From the NCBI GenBank assembly GCA_024222295.1, contig JAAEPF010000034.1, positions 248,001 through 312,000 on the forward strand: a stretch of DNA of 64,000 nt, read 5' to 3'. The notes beneath the pieces were generated by a model. That model ran no database searches. It worked only from the letters and a program-made list of their open reading frames with translations, and was not told where the DNA came from. Both the position numbers and the translations under genes were made by a program. Of the stretch, positions 4,160 through 12,333 are shown in pieces. How positions within the stretch are numbered: position 1 is the first letter of the stretch; each line of letters opens with the position of its first letter. This DNA comes from Actinomycetes bacterium. Its GTDB lineage: Bacteria > Actinomycetota > Acidimicrobiia > Acidimicrobiales > Microtrichaceae.

Positions 4160-4957
4160 TCAGCGGCCGCGGAACTCGGGCGGTCGTTTCTCGCGGAACG
4201 CGGTCATGCCCTCCACGAGGTCGGATGACGCCGTTGCCAAGGCCTGGAAGTGCCCTTCCAACTCGAGGCTGTGCGCAAGGTCGGTCTCCATGGACCGGTT
4301 GAGCAACGACTTCGACATCCCGAGTGACCGGGTGGGCCCACCCGCGAGCTCGCTCGCCAGTTGTCCAGCCTCGGCTGCCATCTCCACCGGGTCGGCCACA
4401 TGGCGGTACGCGATGCCTTCGTGCACGGCATCAGGCCCGACGATCCCGTCGCCGAGCATCACGAGCTGCTTCGCTCGCACGAGACCGACGAGGCGCGGCA
4501 GCAGGTAGGCGCCACCGGCGTCGACCACGAGTCCCCACCGGGCGAAGCTCCAGCGGAACTCCGCGGCGTCGCACACGAACACGAAGTCACACGCCAGCGC
4601 GAGGTGGGCACCCGGACCGATTGCCGGGCCCTGGACCGCTGCAACCGTTGGCTTGTCGAGTTCCCACAGGCCGCGGATGAAGGCCTGCACGCCCGCATGC
4701 AGGGTCTGCGAGGTGGACCGGGGATCGAAGTCGGCGTTGCCCGCCTGGGCGACGGTGGAATCGCGCAGGTCCATGCCCGAGCAGAACGCGTCGCCGGTAG
4801 CAGTCACCAGCACGCAGCGAACCGCATCGTCGGCCCGGCTGGCCCGTACCGCATCGAGAAGGTCGTCGCGCATCTCCGGCGTGAGGGCGTTGGCCGCGTC
4901 GGGCCGGTCGAGTGTGATGTGGCCGACGCCGTCGTCGGTGACCTCGAAGCGGAGCAT
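4160..4957 (-). CDS. Enoyl-CoA hydratase/isomerase family protein
   Basis: A 265-residue crotonase-fold protein. Motifs: N-terminal ITLDRPDAANALTPEM, the first oxyanion-hole loop AFCSGMDL, and the second loop QGPAIGPGAHLALACD, followed by GLVVDAGGAYLLPRLVG. Crotonases hydrate or isomerise enoyl-CoA thioesters in beta-oxidation. The acidic residues at the usual Glu positions are not both evident, so isomerase or another crotonase chemistry is possible. It is the last gene of a minus-strand operon (fusion protein, thiolase, this gene) transcribed from operator 2, 31 bp behind the thiolase gene. Confidence 0.88.
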   Translation of the reverse strand: MLRFEVTDDGVGHITLDRPDAANALTPEMRDDLLDAVRASRADDAVRCVLVTATGDAFCSGMDLRDSTVAQAGNADFDPRSTSQTLHAGVQAFIRGLWELDKPTVAAVQGPAIGPGAHLALACDFVFVCDAAEFRWSFARWGLVVDAGGAYLLPRLVGLVRAKQLVMLGDGIVGPDAVHEGIAYRHVADPVEMAAEAGQLASELAGGPTRSLGMSKSLLNRSMETDLAHSLELEGHFQALATASSDLVEGMTAFREKRPPEFRGR

Positions 4958-4988: not shown

Positions 4989-6164
4989 CTACTCGTTGGT
5001 GGTGAGGACGTTCACGACCGATACGCCGCTTCCGCGGCCGCCCACGTTGTGCTGCAGGGCGAAACCGTTGTGCACCTTCACCTGTCGCTCGTCGGCCTGT
5101 CCGCGTAGTTGCCACCAGCACTCGGTGAGCTGGGCGATCCCCGTTGCGCCGATCGGATGGCCCTTGGCGAGCAGGCCGCCCGACGGGTTCACTGGGATCC
5201 TTCCGGTGAGCGATGTTTCGCCCTCGGCCGATGCGATGCCGCCCTTGCCCTTCTCGAAGAAGCCGAGGTCCTCGATGTCGAGGATCTCGGTGATCGTGAA
5301 GCAGTCATGCACCTCGGCCACGTCGATGTCGGCCGGGCCGATACCGGCCATCTCATAAGCGCGCCCCGACGCCTCGACCGTGGCAGTCAGCCCGACGTAG
5401 CCGGACTTCTCATGCAGGTAGGGGTGGTCGGTGGCCACGCCGAATCCGGCGACGTGCACCGGAGCGGCGGTGTGGTCGCGGGCCTTCTCGGGCGTGGTGA
5501 GGATCACAGCCGCGGCCCCGTCGGTCTGCGGGCAGCAGTCGAGCAGGCCGAGCGGGCTGCACACCGGCGCAGCTTCGACCACCTGCTCCACGGTCACCTC
5601 GTACTGGAAGTGGGCGTAGGGATCGAGGCATCCGTTGTGGTGGTTCTTGACCGCCACCGACGCCAGCATCTCCTTGGTGGTGCCGAAGTCGTGCATGTGG
5701 CGGGTGGCGAACGGCGCGAACAGCACAGGTGCCGACTCACCGCGCGTGTACACAGGGTGGCCACCGGCAGCGCGGGCGAGCAGCCCCTCTTCGGAGGACT
5801 TGTCGCGCATCTTCTCCACACCGATGACCAATACCGTGTCGTAGGCGCCGGACGCCACGGCCATCGCGCCCACCCGGAAGGCGTCGCTTCCCGAAGGACA
5901 CGCGTTCTCGATGCGCGTACACGCCACGCCGTTGAGCCCGATCGCGCTGGGCACGGTGTTGCCACCGATACCCTCCTGGCCCCAGAGCGTGCCCCGCTGC
6001 GTTGCCACGAATACGGCGTCGATGTCGGAGGTGTCGAACCCGTTGTCCACCGACGCCACTGCGGCGTCGAAGGCGCCGCGGGCCATCTGCTCGTAGGATT
6101 GGTCGAACAGTTCGCCCATCTTGATGAGCCCGGCTCCCACGATGGATGCACGGTTCCAGGTCAT
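4989..6164 (-). CDS. SCP2-type thiolase (acetyl-CoA C-acyltransferase)
   Basis: A 391-residue thiolase of the sterol-carrier-protein-x class with a full catalytic set: nucleophile Cys in IENACPSGSDAF, HDCF, and GHPIGATG with the catalytic His. It should cleave 3-ketoacyl-CoA or condense two acyl-CoAs. The start was set at ATG 6164, whose ATGA overlaps the stop of the upstream fusion gene and is preceded by GGAAGGTGG; a start 15 bp further upstream would only add residues inside that gene. The 4-bp overlap suggests translational coupling and a physical complex with the OB-fold fusion protein. See the findings for the resemblance to the archaeal thiolase/HMG-CoA synthase/DUF35 complex. Confidence 0.92.
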   Translation of the reverse strand: MTWNRASIVGAGLIKMGELFDQSYEQMARGAFDAAVASVDNGFDTSDIDAVFVATQRGTLWGQEGIGGNTVPSAIGLNGVACTRIENACPSGSDAFRVGAMAVASGAYDTVLVIGVEKMRDKSSEEGLLARAAGGHPVYTRGESAPVLFAPFATRHMHDFGTTKEMLASVAVKNHHNGCLDPYAHFQYEVTVEQVVEAAPVCSPLGLLDCCPQTDGAAAVILTTPEKARDHTAAPVHVAGFGVATDHPYLHEKSGYVGLTATVEASGRAYEMAGIGPADIDVAEVHDCFTITEILDIEDLGFFEKGKGGIASAEGETSLTGRIPVNPSGGLLAKGHPIGATGIAQLTECWWQLRGQADERQVKVHNGFALQHNVGGRGSGVSVVNVLTTNE

Positions 6165-7576
6165 GTCGCCACCTTCCATCCGTAGACGGGCACGCCGCGC
6201 TCGATCGTGTAGCGCCGTAGAACCAGCTCAACGGGCATTCCCACCTCGAGAGCCGAGCCGTCGTCCGACCCCTGCAGTTGCACCCGCGATCCGTCGTCGA
6301 GGTCGACGACGACGAGTGGCAGCGGAGCCTCGAAGGGTGCGGGCATCGTCTGGTTGACCACAAAGGTCTGGACCGTACCGTGGTGGGGCAGCTCTGCCAC
6401 GTCGAACTTGTCGCCGCCACAGCCCGGACAGCTCGGATGAGCCGAGGGCGGCAAGTTGACAACGCCGCAGTTCACGCAGCGCGCGCCGAGGAGCCCCAGC
6501 ACCTCGCGCAGGTCACGCACGAACATCGCGGAGCCCGGCGGGATCGCCATCTCGACCGACTCCCCAGTCGCCTCGAGCTGACCGCGGGACCTGAGCACCC
6601 TGGCGTAGTCGGCCGGCATGCCCTCCGCGAGCAGGTCGCCGAGCGCTTCCGGGGCGCCCGGGACGGGCTCGTCCACGGCCAGGCCCAGTGCGGTGGCTCG
6701 TCCACCACCCCAGGCCAGAAGTGCCGCCGGGCCCGATTCCCCCAGCGCGGCAACCAGTCCGGCCAGGGGAGCGGCGGCGCCGAGGTCCCCGAGGTGGGTG
6801 CGGACTGCGGCCGACACCGGGTCGCCCAGCTTGAGCTTGCGAGACAGCCCCTTGGCGAGGCGACCGTCGGGGTCGGCGAGCGACCACCGAGTGTCGGGAT
6901 GCATGCCGAGCGCCCCGATCACGTCGGCGGCGAGCGGCATGAAGGCTTCTTCGCGTACGAGGCGGCTGTCGTAGGTATCGCGCGTCTCGGTCTCGTCGTC
7001 GCCGCGGTAGCGGTCGAGCAGCGGCTCGAAGCGTGACGCGACTGAGTCAAGTCGTGCGCCTGCACCGTCACGCCTCAGTACGAGGGCGACCGCGCCGGCA
7101 CCTGCTGCCGTCTCGTGGCCTGAACCGAGCGCGGGGCGCAGGGCCTCGGAAGCCACGACGAGTGCCGTACGGACGCGGCCTGCAGCCACTGCGTCGGCTG
7201 CCGCCAGGAGGGCGTCGACCCCAGAGTGTGGAGAGCCGGCGATCGCTGTGCCGTCGGTGGATGTGTCGAGTCGCAGTGACGCAGCAAGAGTGGACCAACT
7301 CGGCCCCTCTGCGAACGGCAGTCGCGAGGTGCCCCACCAGAGGCCGTCTATCGATCCGGGTCCCACACCGGCTGCGCCCAGTGCCCGAGAAGCCGCGGAC
7401 GCAGCCAGAGTGAGCGTGTCCTCGTCGGACCTGCATGCCGCAACCTGGCCACGGCCGCCAGTGCGGCCCCATGCCGAGTTGATGGCGGACACGGCGAGGC
7501 GAAGTGCCGGTGCGGCCGCACCGACTGACACCAATTCCGCGTCGAGTCCCCTGGGAGTCAGGATTCTGTCAGCCAT
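6161..7576 (-). CDS. HMG-CoA synthase/KAS III-like domain fused to a C-terminal Zn-ribbon OB-fold (DUF35)
   Basis: This 471-residue protein joins two modules. Residues ~1-345 look like a degenerate HMG-CoA synthase or 3-ketoacyl-ACP synthase III fold (ASRALGAAGVGPGSIDGLWWG; GVDALLAAADAVAAGRVRTALVVASE). Residues ~365-471 are a DUF35 module with a zinc ribbon (CVNCG...CPGCGG) and an OB-fold. Where HMG-CoA synthases carry the nucleophilic Cys before 'xAGTxAL', this protein reads SPHSGVDAL, with no cysteine. The condensing activity is therefore probably lost and the module may be a scaffold or CoA-binding partner of the overlapping thiolase. ATG 7576 is supported by a -10 six bases upstream. Confidence 0.8.
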   Translation of the reverse strand: MADRILTPRGLDAELVSVGAAAPALRLAVSAINSAWGRTGGRGQVAACRSDEDTLTLAASAASRALGAAGVGPGSIDGLWWGTSRLPFAEGPSWSTLAASLRLDTSTDGTAIAGSPHSGVDALLAAADAVAAGRVRTALVVASEALRPALGSGHETAAGAGAVALVLRRDGAGARLDSVASRFEPLLDRYRGDDETETRDTYDSRLVREEAFMPLAADVIGALGMHPDTRWSLADPDGRLAKGLSRKLKLGDPVSAAVRTHLGDLGAAAPLAGLVAALGESGPAALLAWGGGRATALGLAVDEPVPGAPEALGDLLAEGMPADYARVLRSRGQLEATGESVEMAIPPGSAMFVRDLREVLGLLGARCVNCGVVNLPPSAHPSCPGCGGDKFDVAELPHHGTVQTFVVNQTMPAPFEAPLPLVVVDLDDGSRVQLQGSDDGSALEVGMPVELVLRRYTIERGVPVYGWKVAT

Positions 7577-7636: not shown

Positions 7637-8308
7637 TCAGCAGTCGGGGTCCTGCCAGATCCGGTCTTCGTTGCAGATTCCGTCCACGGGATCCGAGTTG
7701 TATTCGTCGGACAGCGAGTCGCCGAGGATGAACACCGAGACGACGACCACGGCCCCCGCCAAGACTCCCAGGGCTCCTGTGATGATGCCTGCCAGTGCCA
7801 TGCCGGCCCCGTTGCCGGCCATCTCGTTGGCCTTGTTGCGACCGATGAAGCCGAGGACCACGGCGACGATGCCGAACACCATCCCGACGAAGCATGCCCA
7901 GAACAGCAACACGCTCAGGATGCCGCAGACGAGCGCGCCCACGGCCAGCCCGTTGGTCTGCGAGCCCTGCACCGGGGCGGCGCCATACGCAGCGGCACCA
8001 GGCATCCCCGGCGGCGCAGCTGGTGGTGGCACGGAACCAGGTTGCTGGTAGCCCCCCGGCGGCGGCGGTTGGGCACCGGGAGGAGGTGGTGGTGCTCCCG
8101 GGGGCGGTGGCGGTGCTCCCGGGGGTGGTGGTCCTCCCGGGGGTGGTGGTCCTCCCGGGGGTGGTGGTGCTCCCGGGGGTGGTGGTGCTCCCGGGGGTGG
8201 TGGTGCTCCCGGGGGTGGTGGTGCTCCCGGGGGCGGGCCGACCGGCGGCTGTGAGGGGGTGGTCGGTTCCCCTGGCGGATCGCTGTCGGGAGGTGGGAAG
8301 TCGGACAT
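7637..8308 (-). CDS. DUF4190-like membrane protein with proline-rich N-terminal repeats
   Basis: A 223-residue protein. Residues ~1-105 are Pro/Gly-rich, with about eight copies of a six-residue unit PPPPGA/PPPPGG. Then come two strongly hydrophobic segments (AVGALVCGILSVLLFWACFVG; MALAGIITGALGVLAGAVVVVS) separated by GFIGRNKANEM, the layout of DUF4190 proteins common in actinobacteria. A short tail contains cysteines (GICNEDRIWQDPDC). The function is unknown. The Pro-rich part probably sits on the cytoplasmic face as a flexible or interaction region. GGGGAC before the ATG is a fair ribosome-binding site. It is not evidently part of either flanking thiolase operon. Confidence 0.8.
   Translation of the reverse strand: MSDFPPPDSDPPGEPTTPSQPPVGPPPGAPPPPGAPPPPGAPPPPGAPPPPGGPPPPGGPPPPGAPPPPPGAPPPPPGAQPPPPGGYQQPGSVPPPAAPPGMPGAAAYGAAPVQGSQTNGLAVGALVCGILSVLLFWACFVGMVFGIVAVVLGFIGRNKANEMAGNGAGMALAGIITGALGVLAGAVVVVSVFILGDSLSDEYNSDPVDGICNEDRIWQDPDC
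8083..8240. repeat. 18-bp tandem repeat inside the DUF4190-like gene
   Basis: About eight imperfect copies of TCCCGGGGGTGGTGGTGC (plus strand) encode the PPPPGA/PPPPGG repeats. The inner copies are almost identical, while the outer ones carry silent or single-base differences. Such arrays change copy number by slippage, so length polymorphism between strains is expected. It is coding sequence, not a CRISPR. Confidence 0.85.
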
Positions 8309-8366: not shown

Positions 8367-9521
8367 CTAACCAGCAGCCACCGCCGTGCCGAGGATGGTG
8401 ACCGACGCGTTGGCGCCCCGGCCGATGGTGTGCGCCAGTCCCACGCGGGCGCCCTTGACCTGGCGGTGGCCGCCCTCACCGCGCAGCTGGAGGGCGAGCT
8501 CCACCACCTGGCCGAGACCGGACGCGCCCAAGGGTTCTCCCTTGGACAGCAGGCCGCCCGACTGGTTCACCGGAAGCCTGCCCCCCGGTCCGAAAGTGCC
8601 CTCGGCCAATATCCGCGCCTGCTCCCCACGGTCGCAGAGGCCGAGCTCGTGCCACACGAGCAACTCGCGGGCCGCGTCGGTGTCCTGGCACTCGACCAGG
8701 TCGAGATCGTCGGGGCCGACTCCGGCCGACTCCCAGGCGTCCTGGGCCGCCAGCGTCGATGGTGGGGTGATCCCGGTGTCGTCGATTCCGGCCAGCGGCG
8801 TCGATTCATCGAGTACGGAGCCGGGGAGGTGGCTTCGCAGCTCTGCTGCGAGCAGCCTCGGCGTGCCGGGTCCGGCCAGGTCGGCCCTGCGCAGCACCAC
8901 TGCCGCGGCCCCTTCGTTGGGTGCGCAGAGCATGAGCAACCGCAGCGGGTCACACACCATTTTCGATGTGAGCACCTCGTCGGCCGTCACGACGGTGTTG
9001 AACATTGCGTCGGGGTTGTGCACTCCGGCGGAGCGGTTCTTGACCACGAGCTCGGCCAGATGGCCGGCGCCGAGGCCGTGTTCATCCATGAGGCGCCGGG
9101 CCCGCAGGGCAAAGTACGCGGGTCCGGCGGACAGGCCTGCAGCCTCCATCCACGGCTCGAAGAACGAGCTGCGGATCATCCCCGAGCCCATCTTCTCGAT
9201 ACCGACTACCAGCACCGTGTCGTACTGGCCGGCGGCGATCGCGCCCGCTGCGAGCGAGAGGGCGGCACCACCGGACGCGCAGCCCGCCTCCACATCCACG
9301 ATCGGCACCCCCGTCAGCCCCAGGGCTCCGAGCACCCGGTGCCCCGATGCCACGCCCCCGTAGGCGGTGGCACAGAACGCCGCCTGGAAGTCACCCCGTG
9401 CGATGGACGCGTCGTTCATGGCGTCGTGTAGTGCGGTCGCGCCCATCGCGTGGGCCGAGGTGCCTTCGAAGCGGCCGAACGGGTGCAGGCCGATCCCGGC
9501 CACCGCCACATCGGCGGTCAC
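8367..9521 (-). CDS. Thiolase-family protein paired with an OB-fold partner
   Basis: A 384-residue SCP2-thiolase-like protein. The nucleophile region VDVEAGCASGGAALSLAAG keeps the cysteine, but the usual HDCF reads VECQDTD and the GHPxG motif reads SKGEPLGASG, replacing the catalytic His with Glu. Normal thiolysis may therefore be altered; carbon-carbon lyase or a non-catalytic role are alternatives. The GTG start at 9521 overlaps the stop of the upstream DUF35 gene by 4 bp (GTGA), so the two are co-translated and likely form one complex. The longer frame starting at 9545 would overlap the partner gene further and lacks homology. Confidence 0.85.
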   Translation of the reverse strand: MTADVAVAGIGLHPFGRFEGTSAHAMGATALHDAMNDASIARGDFQAAFCATAYGGVASGHRVLGALGLTGVPIVDVEAGCASGGAALSLAAGAIAAGQYDTVLVVGIEKMGSGMIRSSFFEPWMEAAGLSAGPAYFALRARRLMDEHGLGAGHLAELVVKNRSAGVHNPDAMFNTVVTADEVLTSKMVCDPLRLLMLCAPNEGAAAVVLRRADLAGPGTPRLLAAELRSHLPGSVLDESTPLAGIDDTGITPPSTLAAQDAWESAGVGPDDLDLVECQDTDAARELLVWHELGLCDRGEQARILAEGTFGPGGRLPVNQSGGLLSKGEPLGASGLGQVVELALQLRGEGGHRQVKGARVGLAHTIGRGANASVTILGTAVAAG

Positions 9522-9928
9522 GGCGCCACCTCGGCAAAGGCCCATACCGTGCAGTCGTTGCCGTGTGCGTCGGTGACCGTTTCGGCGACCACGGTCATCG
9601 GCGTGCCTCCGGCCAGCTCAGCGGGGGAGTCGGCCTTGACCCGGCCGACCACCCGCAGGCCGTCGTCGAGTTCGACCACGCCCAACCCATACGGGACAGG
9701 ACCCGAGTAGCCCGGCGGCGCAGCTCTGACCTCGGTGCACTGCCAAAGCTCACCTGTGCGGGGCAGGTCGATCGGTTCCACGTCGTCGGCGCCCGTGTAG
9801 GGGCATACCGGCTGCAACGGGAAGTGGGTCAGGCCACTCGACTGCGACCTGCCGCCGAGAAGGGTCAGGCCGTCCGAGTCGACGCGGAACAGCCCTCCGA
9901 CGATGGGAGGTGGTGTGCCGCTGCTCAC
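9518..9928 (-). CDS. OB-fold/DUF35 protein, thiolase partner
   Basis: A 136-residue protein of the DUF35 (ChsH2 C-terminal-like) family. An N-terminal segment with a degenerate zinc ribbon (only one Cys pair position, VCPYTG) is followed by an OB-fold: LWQCTEVRAAPPGYSGPVPYGLGVVELDDGLRVVGRV. In steroid degradation, DUF35 proteins bind the thiolase-like aldolase Ltp2 and help bind the acyl-CoA. The GTG start at 9928 is backed by TAGTGT seven bases upstream. First gene of a two-gene operon with the thiolase-like gene 8367-9521. No palindromic operator is seen in front of it. Confidence 0.82.
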   Translation of the reverse strand: MSSGTPPPIVGGLFRVDSDGLTLLGGRSQSSGLTHFPLQPVCPYTGADDVEPIDLPRTGELWQCTEVRAAPPGYSGPVPYGLGVVELDDGLRVVGRVKADSPAELAGGTPMTVVAETVTDAHGNDCTVWAFAEVAP

Positions 9929-10572: not shown

Positions 10573-12333
10573 ATGACAACCGGGTCCGGGGCAGTCGTGC
10601 ACGGGGTACCCCGAGACGTGGTCGTGGGCCTCGACGAGGCGGTTTCGCACGTACAGGCGGGCGATGCAGTGCACGTGATGTGTTCCCACACCCGGTTCTC
10701 CGCGGTTGCGAGGGCACTGGTACGGCGCTGGTGGGGCCGGGATCCGCAGTGGACGCTGGTGATGCTGTCGCTATCGAGCCTTGGGGCGCTGTTCTTCCCA
10801 CCCGGCGAGGGCCGGCGCGGCCTCGTGCGCAGGGTCGTCACCGGCTACTCGGGCGACGTGTTTCCCAACTTCACCCCCAACCCACGGTTCTCCCTGGCCT
10901 ACATGTCCGGCGAGGTGGAGGTGGAGCACTGGTCGTTCCTGGCCTTCGCGCAGCGGATGGAGGCAGCCGCCCGGGGCCTGCCCGCTGTGGCCACCGACTC
11001 GATCGCCGGTTCGTCGATGGAGCACAACGACGGATTCGCAGTCGTGGACACGCCCTTTGGCGGGCTCGGGTTGCTCGAGGCCTACGCACCCGACATCGCG
11101 TTGGTGCACGCAGCGGTGGCGGACCGGTCGGGAAATCTGGCGTTCCACCCCCCGTTGCTCGAAGGCGCCTGGGGAGCGCTGGCGGCCCGACGGGGAGTGG
11201 TGGCTAGCGTCGAGCGGGTCGTCGATGACATCACTCCGTGGGCACACCTCGTGCGGGTGCCGTCCCACCGGGTGCTCGCAGTGGCCGAGGCTCCGATGGG
11301 GGCCCACCCGGGTGGCCTGTACGGCACGTTCACACCAGCAGAGCCGTATGCCGAGGACCTTGACCACTGGGTGGCTGCCCGAGACGCCACCCGGGGCACA
11401 GATGAAGAATGGTCCGAGTTCGTGCGCCACTGGGTGCTCGAACCTGAGACACAACAGGACTACCTCGACCGGCTCGGGGTCGAGCGGGTCGAGAGGCTCA
11501 GGGCGCGGTCGGACCGCCAGTCATGGCGGGAGGACGCGCAGGAGAACCCGCCTAACCTGTCGGCACCGCCCAACGACTGGGAGCTGGCGGCCGTGCACGG
11601 CGCCCGTGCCCTTGCCGACCGGCTCGTCGATTCCTGTGCGGATGCCGTGCTCGCCGGCGCGGGCGTGGCCAATCTGGCCACGTGGTTGGGGGTGGAGCTG
11701 GCCCGCGAACGAGGGGCGACCACGGTCCTCACCGCCGAGCTCGGCCTGCTCGGCTACGAGCCCACGCCCGCGGACCCGTTCGTGTTCAACCACCGCGCAT
11801 TTCCCTCCTCCATGATGCTGGCGGATTCCGACGTGGTGCTCGGGTGTCTGGTGCCGGGCTCCGCAACGACAACCCTTGCGTGTCTGGGTGCCGCCCAGAT
11901 CGATGCCCTCGGCAACATCAACTCCACGATGATCCCAGCGGCGCAGCACGATGATGGCTCCACCAGCCGGGGGGTGTTCCTGGTGGGGTCCGGGGGTGGC
12001 AACGACGTCGCGTCGACCGCGGACGATGTGGTGGTGGTCACGACGCTCACACCGAGGCGGACGGTGCAGCGGGTGCCCTACGTGACCTCTCCGGGTGCAC
12101 GGGTATCGGTGATCGCAACGGAGCTGGGCGTGTTCGAGCGGCGTGCAGGTGGTTTCGAACTGGTGGGTATCCCGGCCGGGGTGGATCGCGAGGAGCACTT
12201 CGGACTCATTGCCGACAGTCTCGCCTGGCCATTGAAGGTGGCGGATGAGTGTGCAGAACTGGCGCCACCCGGGGCCGGTGAGATCGAGCGACTCCGCACC
12301 TGGGATCCGAAGGGCCTCTTCCTGCGCGCCTGA
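10573..12333 (+). CDS. Fused family-I CoA-transferase (glutaconate CoA-transferase/IpdAB-like)
   Basis: A 586-residue single chain covering what is normally two subunits. Residues ~15-300 resemble the alpha subunit (VGLDEAVSHVQAGDAVHVMCSHTRFS; DIALVHAAVADRSGNLAF). Residues ~345-586 resemble the beta subunit (ADAVLAGAGVANLATWLGVELA; TAELGLLGYEP; FLVGSGGGNDVAS). Family-I CoA-transferases move CoA between acids through a glutamyl-CoA thioester. The related IpdAB of steroid degradation hydrolyses a ring-opened CoA ester instead. I cannot tell transferase from hydrolase without knowing whether the catalytic Glu is kept; the E of TAELG is the candidate. ATG 10573 is the first start. Confidence 0.82.
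   Translation: MTTGSGAVVHGVPRDVVVGLDEAVSHVQAGDAVHVMCSHTRFSAVARALVRRWWGRDPQWTLVMLSLSSLGALFFPPGEGRRGLVRRVVTGYSGDVFPNFTPNPRFSLAYMSGEVEVEHWSFLAFAQRMEAAARGLPAVATDSIAGSSMEHNDGFAVVDTPFGGLGLLEAYAPDIALVHAAVADRSGNLAFHPPLLEGAWGALAARRGVVASVERVVDDITPWAHLVRVPSHRVLAVAEAPMGAHPGGLYGTFTPAEPYAEDLDHWVAARDATRGTDEEWSEFVRHWVLEPETQQDYLDRLGVERVERLRARSDRQSWREDAQENPPNLSAPPNDWELAAVHGARALADRLVDSCADAVLAGAGVANLATWLGVELARERGATTVLTAELGLLGYEPTPADPFVFNHRAFPSSMMLADSDVVLGCLVPGSATTTLACLGAAQIDALGNINSTMIPAAQHDDGSTSRGVFLVGSGGGNDVASTADDVVVVTTLTPRRTVQRVPYVTSPGARVSVIATELGVFERRAGGFELVGIPAGVDREEHFGLIADSLAWPLKVADECAELAPPGAGEIERLRTWDPKGLFLRA

Follow-up and report, generated by a model that had tools for sequence, protein, structure and literature searches.

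An HMG-CoA synthase-like/DUF35 fusion protein lacking the synthase catalytic residues is a probable non-catalytic partner of a thiolase

Introduction

What can be the function of a protein that resembles HMG-CoA synthase (HMGCS) but carries no Cys where the nucleophile should be, and that is fused to a DUF35 domain and encoded next to a thiolase? This question is raised by a locus of an Actinomycetes bacterium of the family Microtrichaceae (contig JAAEPF010000034.1), located in the 64,000-nucleotide stretch of DNA that we analysed as a whole (hereafter, the window).

A comparable protein is the PhlA subunit of PpATase (PhlACB; PDB 5M3K/5MG5), which was named as an inactive member of the thiolase superfamily already in 2010 (PMC2954200). 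The key HMGCS residues, Cys114 and Glu82, are both missing from PhlA, and this subunit has been described as non-catalytic; acyl transfer is performed by the thiolase subunit PhlC only, and the proposal for PhlA and PhlB is that the complex requires them to assemble (PMC6392133).

Results

Domain composition and predicted fold of the fusion protein

The fusion protein, of 471 amino acids, is encoded in one ORF on the minus strand (6161..7576). Alignment to M. thermolithotrophicus HMGCS, together with structure, places the HMGS-like domain at about residues 11-336 (6569..7546, minus strand); the DUF35 part, consisting of a zinc ribbon and an OB fold, covers about residues 355-470 (6167..6514, minus strand). 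The latter is matched by the Pfam families zf-ChsH2 (26.9 bits against a cut-off of 23.2) and OB_ChsH2_C (35.7 against 27.1), and the zinc ribbon residues Cys367, Cys370, Cys383 and Cys386 are kept in 35/35 orthologues. The N-terminal domain aligns with the NCBIfam archaeal HMG-CoA synthase model over its whole length, with scores far below the curated cut-offs of the archaeal-type models TIGR00748 (81.5 versus 244 bits) and NF003274 (43.3 versus 353 bits).

An AlphaFold2 model of the fusion protein, built with its relatives, reached a pLDDT of 91. The predicted HMGS-like domain superimposes on 6ET9_I with a VIA-align Z of 42.6 and an rmsd of 1.8 over 322 residues, on PhlA with Z of 42.0 (9SKH_A) and 40.6 (5M3K_A), and on the MucABC subunit 9VBO_A with Z of 39.4; as modelled, its fold is of the HMGCS/PhlA type. 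A preliminary description of this DNA had recognized a synthase-like domain and DUF35 in one protein and had likened the three parts to the archaeal thiolase/HMGCS/DUF35 complex; the Pfam and NCBIfam matches bear out the former, and the domain matches with the similarity to 6ESQ/6ET9 bear out the latter.

Loss of the catalytic residues

Catalysis in the HMG-CoA synthase family also involves a His residue. When a profile of 49 relatives was searched against PDB sequences, the best match was 6ESQ chain I (M. thermolithotrophicus HMGCS; E 2e-50), followed by PhlA proteins and one MucABC subunit. The preliminary description had noted that the nucleophile region, SPHSGVDAL (residues 115-123), contains no Cys, and the alignment to 6ESQ chain I agrees, with Pro116 aligned to the catalytic Cys114. 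The former nucleophile elbow (residues 116-121, PHSGVD; 7214..7231, minus strand) lies within a conserved GSxHxG motif. The catalytic Glu and His, which went unmentioned in that description, are replaced as well: Glu82, Cys114, His238 and Asn270 of the M. thermolithotrophicus enzyme correspond to Ser84, Pro116, Ala234 and Asp264, respectively.

These replacements are general. Among 133 fusion proteins from class, phylum and GTDB contigs, comprising 56 members of the window's own group and 77 further ones, not one retains Cys, Glu or His in the corresponding column (0/133), so that aligning the residue across genomes, a check suggested beforehand, gave the same answer throughout. The Cys column is occupied by P, T, A, V, S, Q or I in the 56 and by L, V, I, A, T, P, H or S (with one gap) in the 77; because it is free of Cys in all 56 + 77 proteins, the loss is not a matter of chance or local decay. 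Just after the lost Cys, 126 of the 133 fusions have a basic residue (His, Arg or Lys).

A conserved Cys elsewhere, which the preliminary description had named as a result that would count against it, does exist: Cys48 (7433-7435, minus strand), in a CxxDED motif, is kept in 35/35 orthologues. It is not at the nucleophile position, however, and is Ala in 18/18 of the distant relatives first sampled; for the latter reason, we judge it unlikely to be a substitute nucleophile.

In a FastTree tree, the window's orthologues group together (support 0.81) and PhlA groups with the MucABC subunit (0.99); support is low for the position of 6ESQ_I (0.21) and for the clade of all fusions, unfused relatives included (0.37).

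The adjacent thiolase

The neighbouring gene (4989..6164, minus strand, starting with the ATG at 6164) encodes an SCP2/archaeal-type thiolase of 391 amino acids with Cys89 in ENACPSG, His286 in HDCF and His336 in GHP. The TGA stop of the fusion gene (6163-6161) and the ATG of the thiolase gene (6164-6162) share 4 bp (ATGA), which is the overlap previously reported for this pair. In the window's own group, 41/56 members have ATGA, GTGA or TTGA at the end of the fusion gene, which fits translational coupling.

Of the 139 sampled relatives with enough sequence, 134 have a thiolase gene as the next one downstream on the same strand; the five exceptions comprise three fusions whose ORFs are over-long or at a contig end, an unfused relative and a FabH-like protein. 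This adjacency could partly come from a shared pathway rather than from contact. The nucleophilic Cys89 is present in all 135 aligned partner thiolases, and the GHP His (His336) in all 129 that are readable at this position. For the partner thiolase of the window, the best match is the archaeal acetoacetyl-CoA thiolase 6ESQ_A (E 8e-78, compared with 3e-29 for 6OK1_A, Ltp2, and 3e-24 for 5M3K_C, PhlC). Given the lack of the catalytic residues in all 133 fusions, the adjacency and the retention of Cys89, we are dealing with a stable family of fused pseudo-synthases accompanied by active-looking thiolases.

Conservation of the three parts and of the pocket

Mean pairwise identity within the orthologue group decreases from the thiolase (82%) to DUF35 (68%) to the HMGS-like domain (57%), the order expected if the thiolase alone is catalytic. 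Near-invariant positions are enriched around the former active site, amounting to 16/44 at no more than 5 residues from the four aligned active-site columns versus 55/282 in the rest of the domain (p 0.018). This modest enrichment is a hint of a pocket retained for binding; a second test, on motif loops chosen by eye (p 2e-7), is circular and was set aside, so that only the aligned-column test counts. Taking this enrichment with the basic residue in 126/133 fusions, the pocket, judged from sequence, is not simply decaying.

Operon and genome context

The third gene of the conserved unit encodes an enoyl-CoA hydratase/isomerase (crotonase; 4160..4957, minus strand). In an ORF-based count over 20 long-flanked orthologous loci, a crotonase gene was found downstream in 18/20, an SDR dehydrogenase in 10/20 and an acyl-CoA dehydrogenase in 8/20, and the module looks like a beta-oxidation-type cassette. 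Other genes near it in the window encode a P450, an acyl-CoA ligase, a fused CoA-transferase-like protein and more thiolase-like and DUF35 proteins, which likewise point to degradation of complex CoA esters. No steroid-pathway NCBIfam equivalog scored above cut-off in the window, and no polyketide genes were seen next to the module. HMG-CoA reductase (PF00368) was not found in the genome, an incomplete assembly, and IspG was; accordingly, the module does not appear to be a mevalonate complex.

Several neighbours deserve mention in their own right. Just upstream of the module is a second thiolase-fold/DUF35 pair (8367-9928, minus strand), kept in the five nearest orthologous loci, in which the thiolase-like protein keeps its Cys (EAGCASG) and has GEP instead of GHP and ECQD instead of HDCF; its partner is a 136-aa OB-fold protein with no zinc ribbon by Pfam. 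Between the two pairs, a membrane-protein-like ORF (7637-8308, minus strand) contains a long PPPPGAPPPPGG-like repeat run. The CoA-transferase-like protein (10573-12333, plus strand; 586 aa) has regions like both subunits (scoA/pcaI-like and scoB/pcaJ-like), and its gene adjoins the module in the five nearest relatives too.

Phyletic distribution

Close relatives of the fusion protein (about 41-64% identity) come mainly from Acidimicrobiia, other Actinomycetota MAGs, Mycobacterium nebraskense and M. pinniadriaticum, and distant fusions (about 26-31%) from Chloroflexi, Binataceae, Deltaproteobacteria, Proteobacteria and Frankia; overall, fusions span Actinomycetota, Chloroflexi, Binataceae, Pseudomonadota and haloarchaea. 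The window's genome itself has a second copy, 30% identical, with its own thiolase. Some fusions are plasmid-borne (Rhodococcus, Novosphingobium, a haloarchaeon), and a thiolase and beta-oxidation genes adjoin them in the four records examined. Two orthologues of 54-55% identity (L093 and L095) are on contigs titled as a 'Bifidobacterium breve' MAG; such orthologues are otherwise found in Acidimicrobiia-type MAGs, and the title is probably a mislabel. In other Actinomycetota (L190-L195 and L197), there are also HMGS-like proteins, mostly unfused, of about 330 aa and likewise without the Cys; the gene that comes next encodes a thiolase-like protein, in most cases with the motif EAACGTG.

A counterpart in oestrogen degradation

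In the oestradiol degrader Novosphingobium sp. ES2-1, plasmid p3 carries, in this order, genes for an acyl-CoA dehydrogenase, an SDR, the fusion, a thiolase, two enoyl-CoA hydratases, a hypothetical protein, a lipid-transfer protein, an OB-fold protein and a P450. This order agrees with the N. tardaugens OpA gene list of PMC7793797; there EGO55_13555, an 'HMG-CoA synthase' encoded in that oestrogen edc operon, is reported as unassignable. In the ES2-1 fusion protein, the Cys column is occupied by Leu, the Glu column by Thr and the His column by Ser. By analogy, and with the residues read from this ES2-1 counterpart, a non-catalytic thiolase partner would account for EGO55_13555. That the window might itself be an oestrogen cluster was considered and rejected, because it contains no match to homologues of the EdcB dioxygenase or the EdcC oxidoreductase; furthermore, the shared parts are only 26-43% identical.

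Discussion

We consider it probable that the fusion protein is a non-catalytic pseudo-synthase/clamp subunit of a thiolase complex, in which the thiolase does the chemistry on 3-ketoacyl-CoA. By analogy with the archaeal complex and PhlACB, DUF35 would bind the thiolase and the pseudo-synthase side by side; the pseudo-synthase would contribute part of a shared CoA/substrate cavity and stabilise the assembly, and catalysis would be left to Cys89 and His336 of the thiolase. Homology, the adjacency of the genes and the presence of DUF35 are our grounds for inferring that the two proteins make contact, and the pair would presumably be thiolytic. The probable role of the thiolase is to cleave a 3-ketoacyl-CoA that is bulky or branched, as the last step of a beta-oxidation-type cassette of acyl-CoA dehydrogenase, enoyl-CoA hydratase, SDR dehydrogenase and thiolase. 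The role of scaffold or CoA-binding module that the preliminary description had suggested for the synthase module is the best reading.

If the HMGS-like domain were instead an active synthase, or another enzyme working through Cys48, His117 or Ser115, the invariance of these three residues in the 35 orthologues would be readily understood. We find this very improbable: Cys48 is Ala in the 18 distant relatives first sampled, most other fusions carry Arg or Lys in place of His117, Glu and His of the synthase active site are missing too, and the genome appears to have no mevalonate pathway. The domain being the least conserved of the three parts might suggest a functionless relic, retained through its fusion to the DUF35 clamp, but such a relic would hardly be expected to be full length in all sampled groups of several phyla and to keep invariant motifs near the former active site, and we think this scarcely likely. 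A mevalonate-pathway thiolase/HMG-CoA synthase complex of the archaeal kind, with which the module shares all three parts, has a negligible chance of being correct and is rejected on the loss of catalytic Cys, Glu and His and on the presence of IspG without HMG-CoA reductase in the (incomplete) assembly.

More plausible, though still unlikely, is that the fusion protein is a non-catalytic partner of an enzyme other than a thiolase, namely, an aldolase such as Ltp2 or Sal, or a C-acyltransferase such as PhlC. Known DUF35 partners do include the aldolases Ltp2 and Sal (PMC12329534) and the acyltransferase PhlC; the partner in the window, however, is far closer to 6ESQ_A, keeps the ENACPSG, HDCF and GHP motifs, and has no polyketide genes beside it. 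We therefore retain the pseudo-synthase/clamp subunit of a thiolase as the preferred reading. Its extension to the family is tentative, and here we are slightly more doubtful than convinced: the large fused pseudo-synthase/DUF35 family might make up a non-catalytic half that is indispensable to thiolases of peripheral catabolism (of oestrogen, aromatics and other compounds) and provides one wall of the CoA/substrate cavity for bulky 3-ketoacyl-CoAs, with PhlA-like inactivation having occurred separately in biosynthetic and catabolic lines.

The preliminary description held that such a complex would be new, and this does not stand: an inactive synthase subunit in a thiolase complex already has a precedent, with PhlA of PhlACB devoid of Cys and Glu (PMC6392133) and the MucABC subunit (9VBO) similar in this respect. 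What looks new is the HMGS-like/DUF35 fusion, on which we found no papers in the open-access literature, the uniform loss of three residues across a broad family and the occurrence in beta-oxidation-type catabolic operons. Family members currently bear the annotation HMG-CoA synthase or 'OB-fold domain-containing protein' and cannot easily be assigned a place in catabolic pathways; recognizing them as catalytically dead thiolase partners would correct annotation over several phyla and would offer a testable answer for the unassigned HMG-CoA synthase gene in oestrogen degradation. The family also lends itself, as a natural series, to the question of what a thiolase requires an adjoining dead synthase for.

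Among known systems, the archaeal acetoacetyl-CoA thiolase/HMGCS/DUF35 complex (6ESQ, 6ET9) is the best match for both the fold and the partner thiolase, but its synthase is active (Cys114, Glu82), it belongs to the mevalonate pathway and it consists of three separate chains. PhlACB/PpATase and CsATase (5M3K, 5MG5, 9SKH), the Friedel-Crafts acylase of DAPG biosynthesis, share with the window a thiolase, an HMGS-like subunit without Cys, Glu and His, and DUF35, and their chemistry is confined to the thiolase subunit (PMC6392133, PMC12955522). PhlACB, an assembly of the (A2C2)2B4 type, is however encoded by three separate genes of antibiotic biosynthesis, whereas in the window the HMGS-like domain, about 24% identical to PhlA, is joined to DUF35 in one ORF and the clusters are those of CoA-ester catabolism. 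The aligned columns are free of Cys, Glu and His also in the HMGS-like subunit of the MucABC acyltransferase complex of Streptococcus macacae (9VBO, 9VBT), but this complex is unfused and its proposed activity is tetramate C-acetylation (PMC10161427). In the ChsH2-Ltp2, Shy-Sal and BbsAB pairs, a thiolase-fold enzyme is likewise clamped by DUF35, but there is no HMGS-like domain, and in ChsH2 and Shy, DUF35 is joined to a hydratase part. Similar in gene arrangement are the oestrogen edc OpA operon and ES2-1 p3, where the fusion, about 29% identical to that of the window, is likewise followed by a thiolase and enoyl-CoA hydratases.
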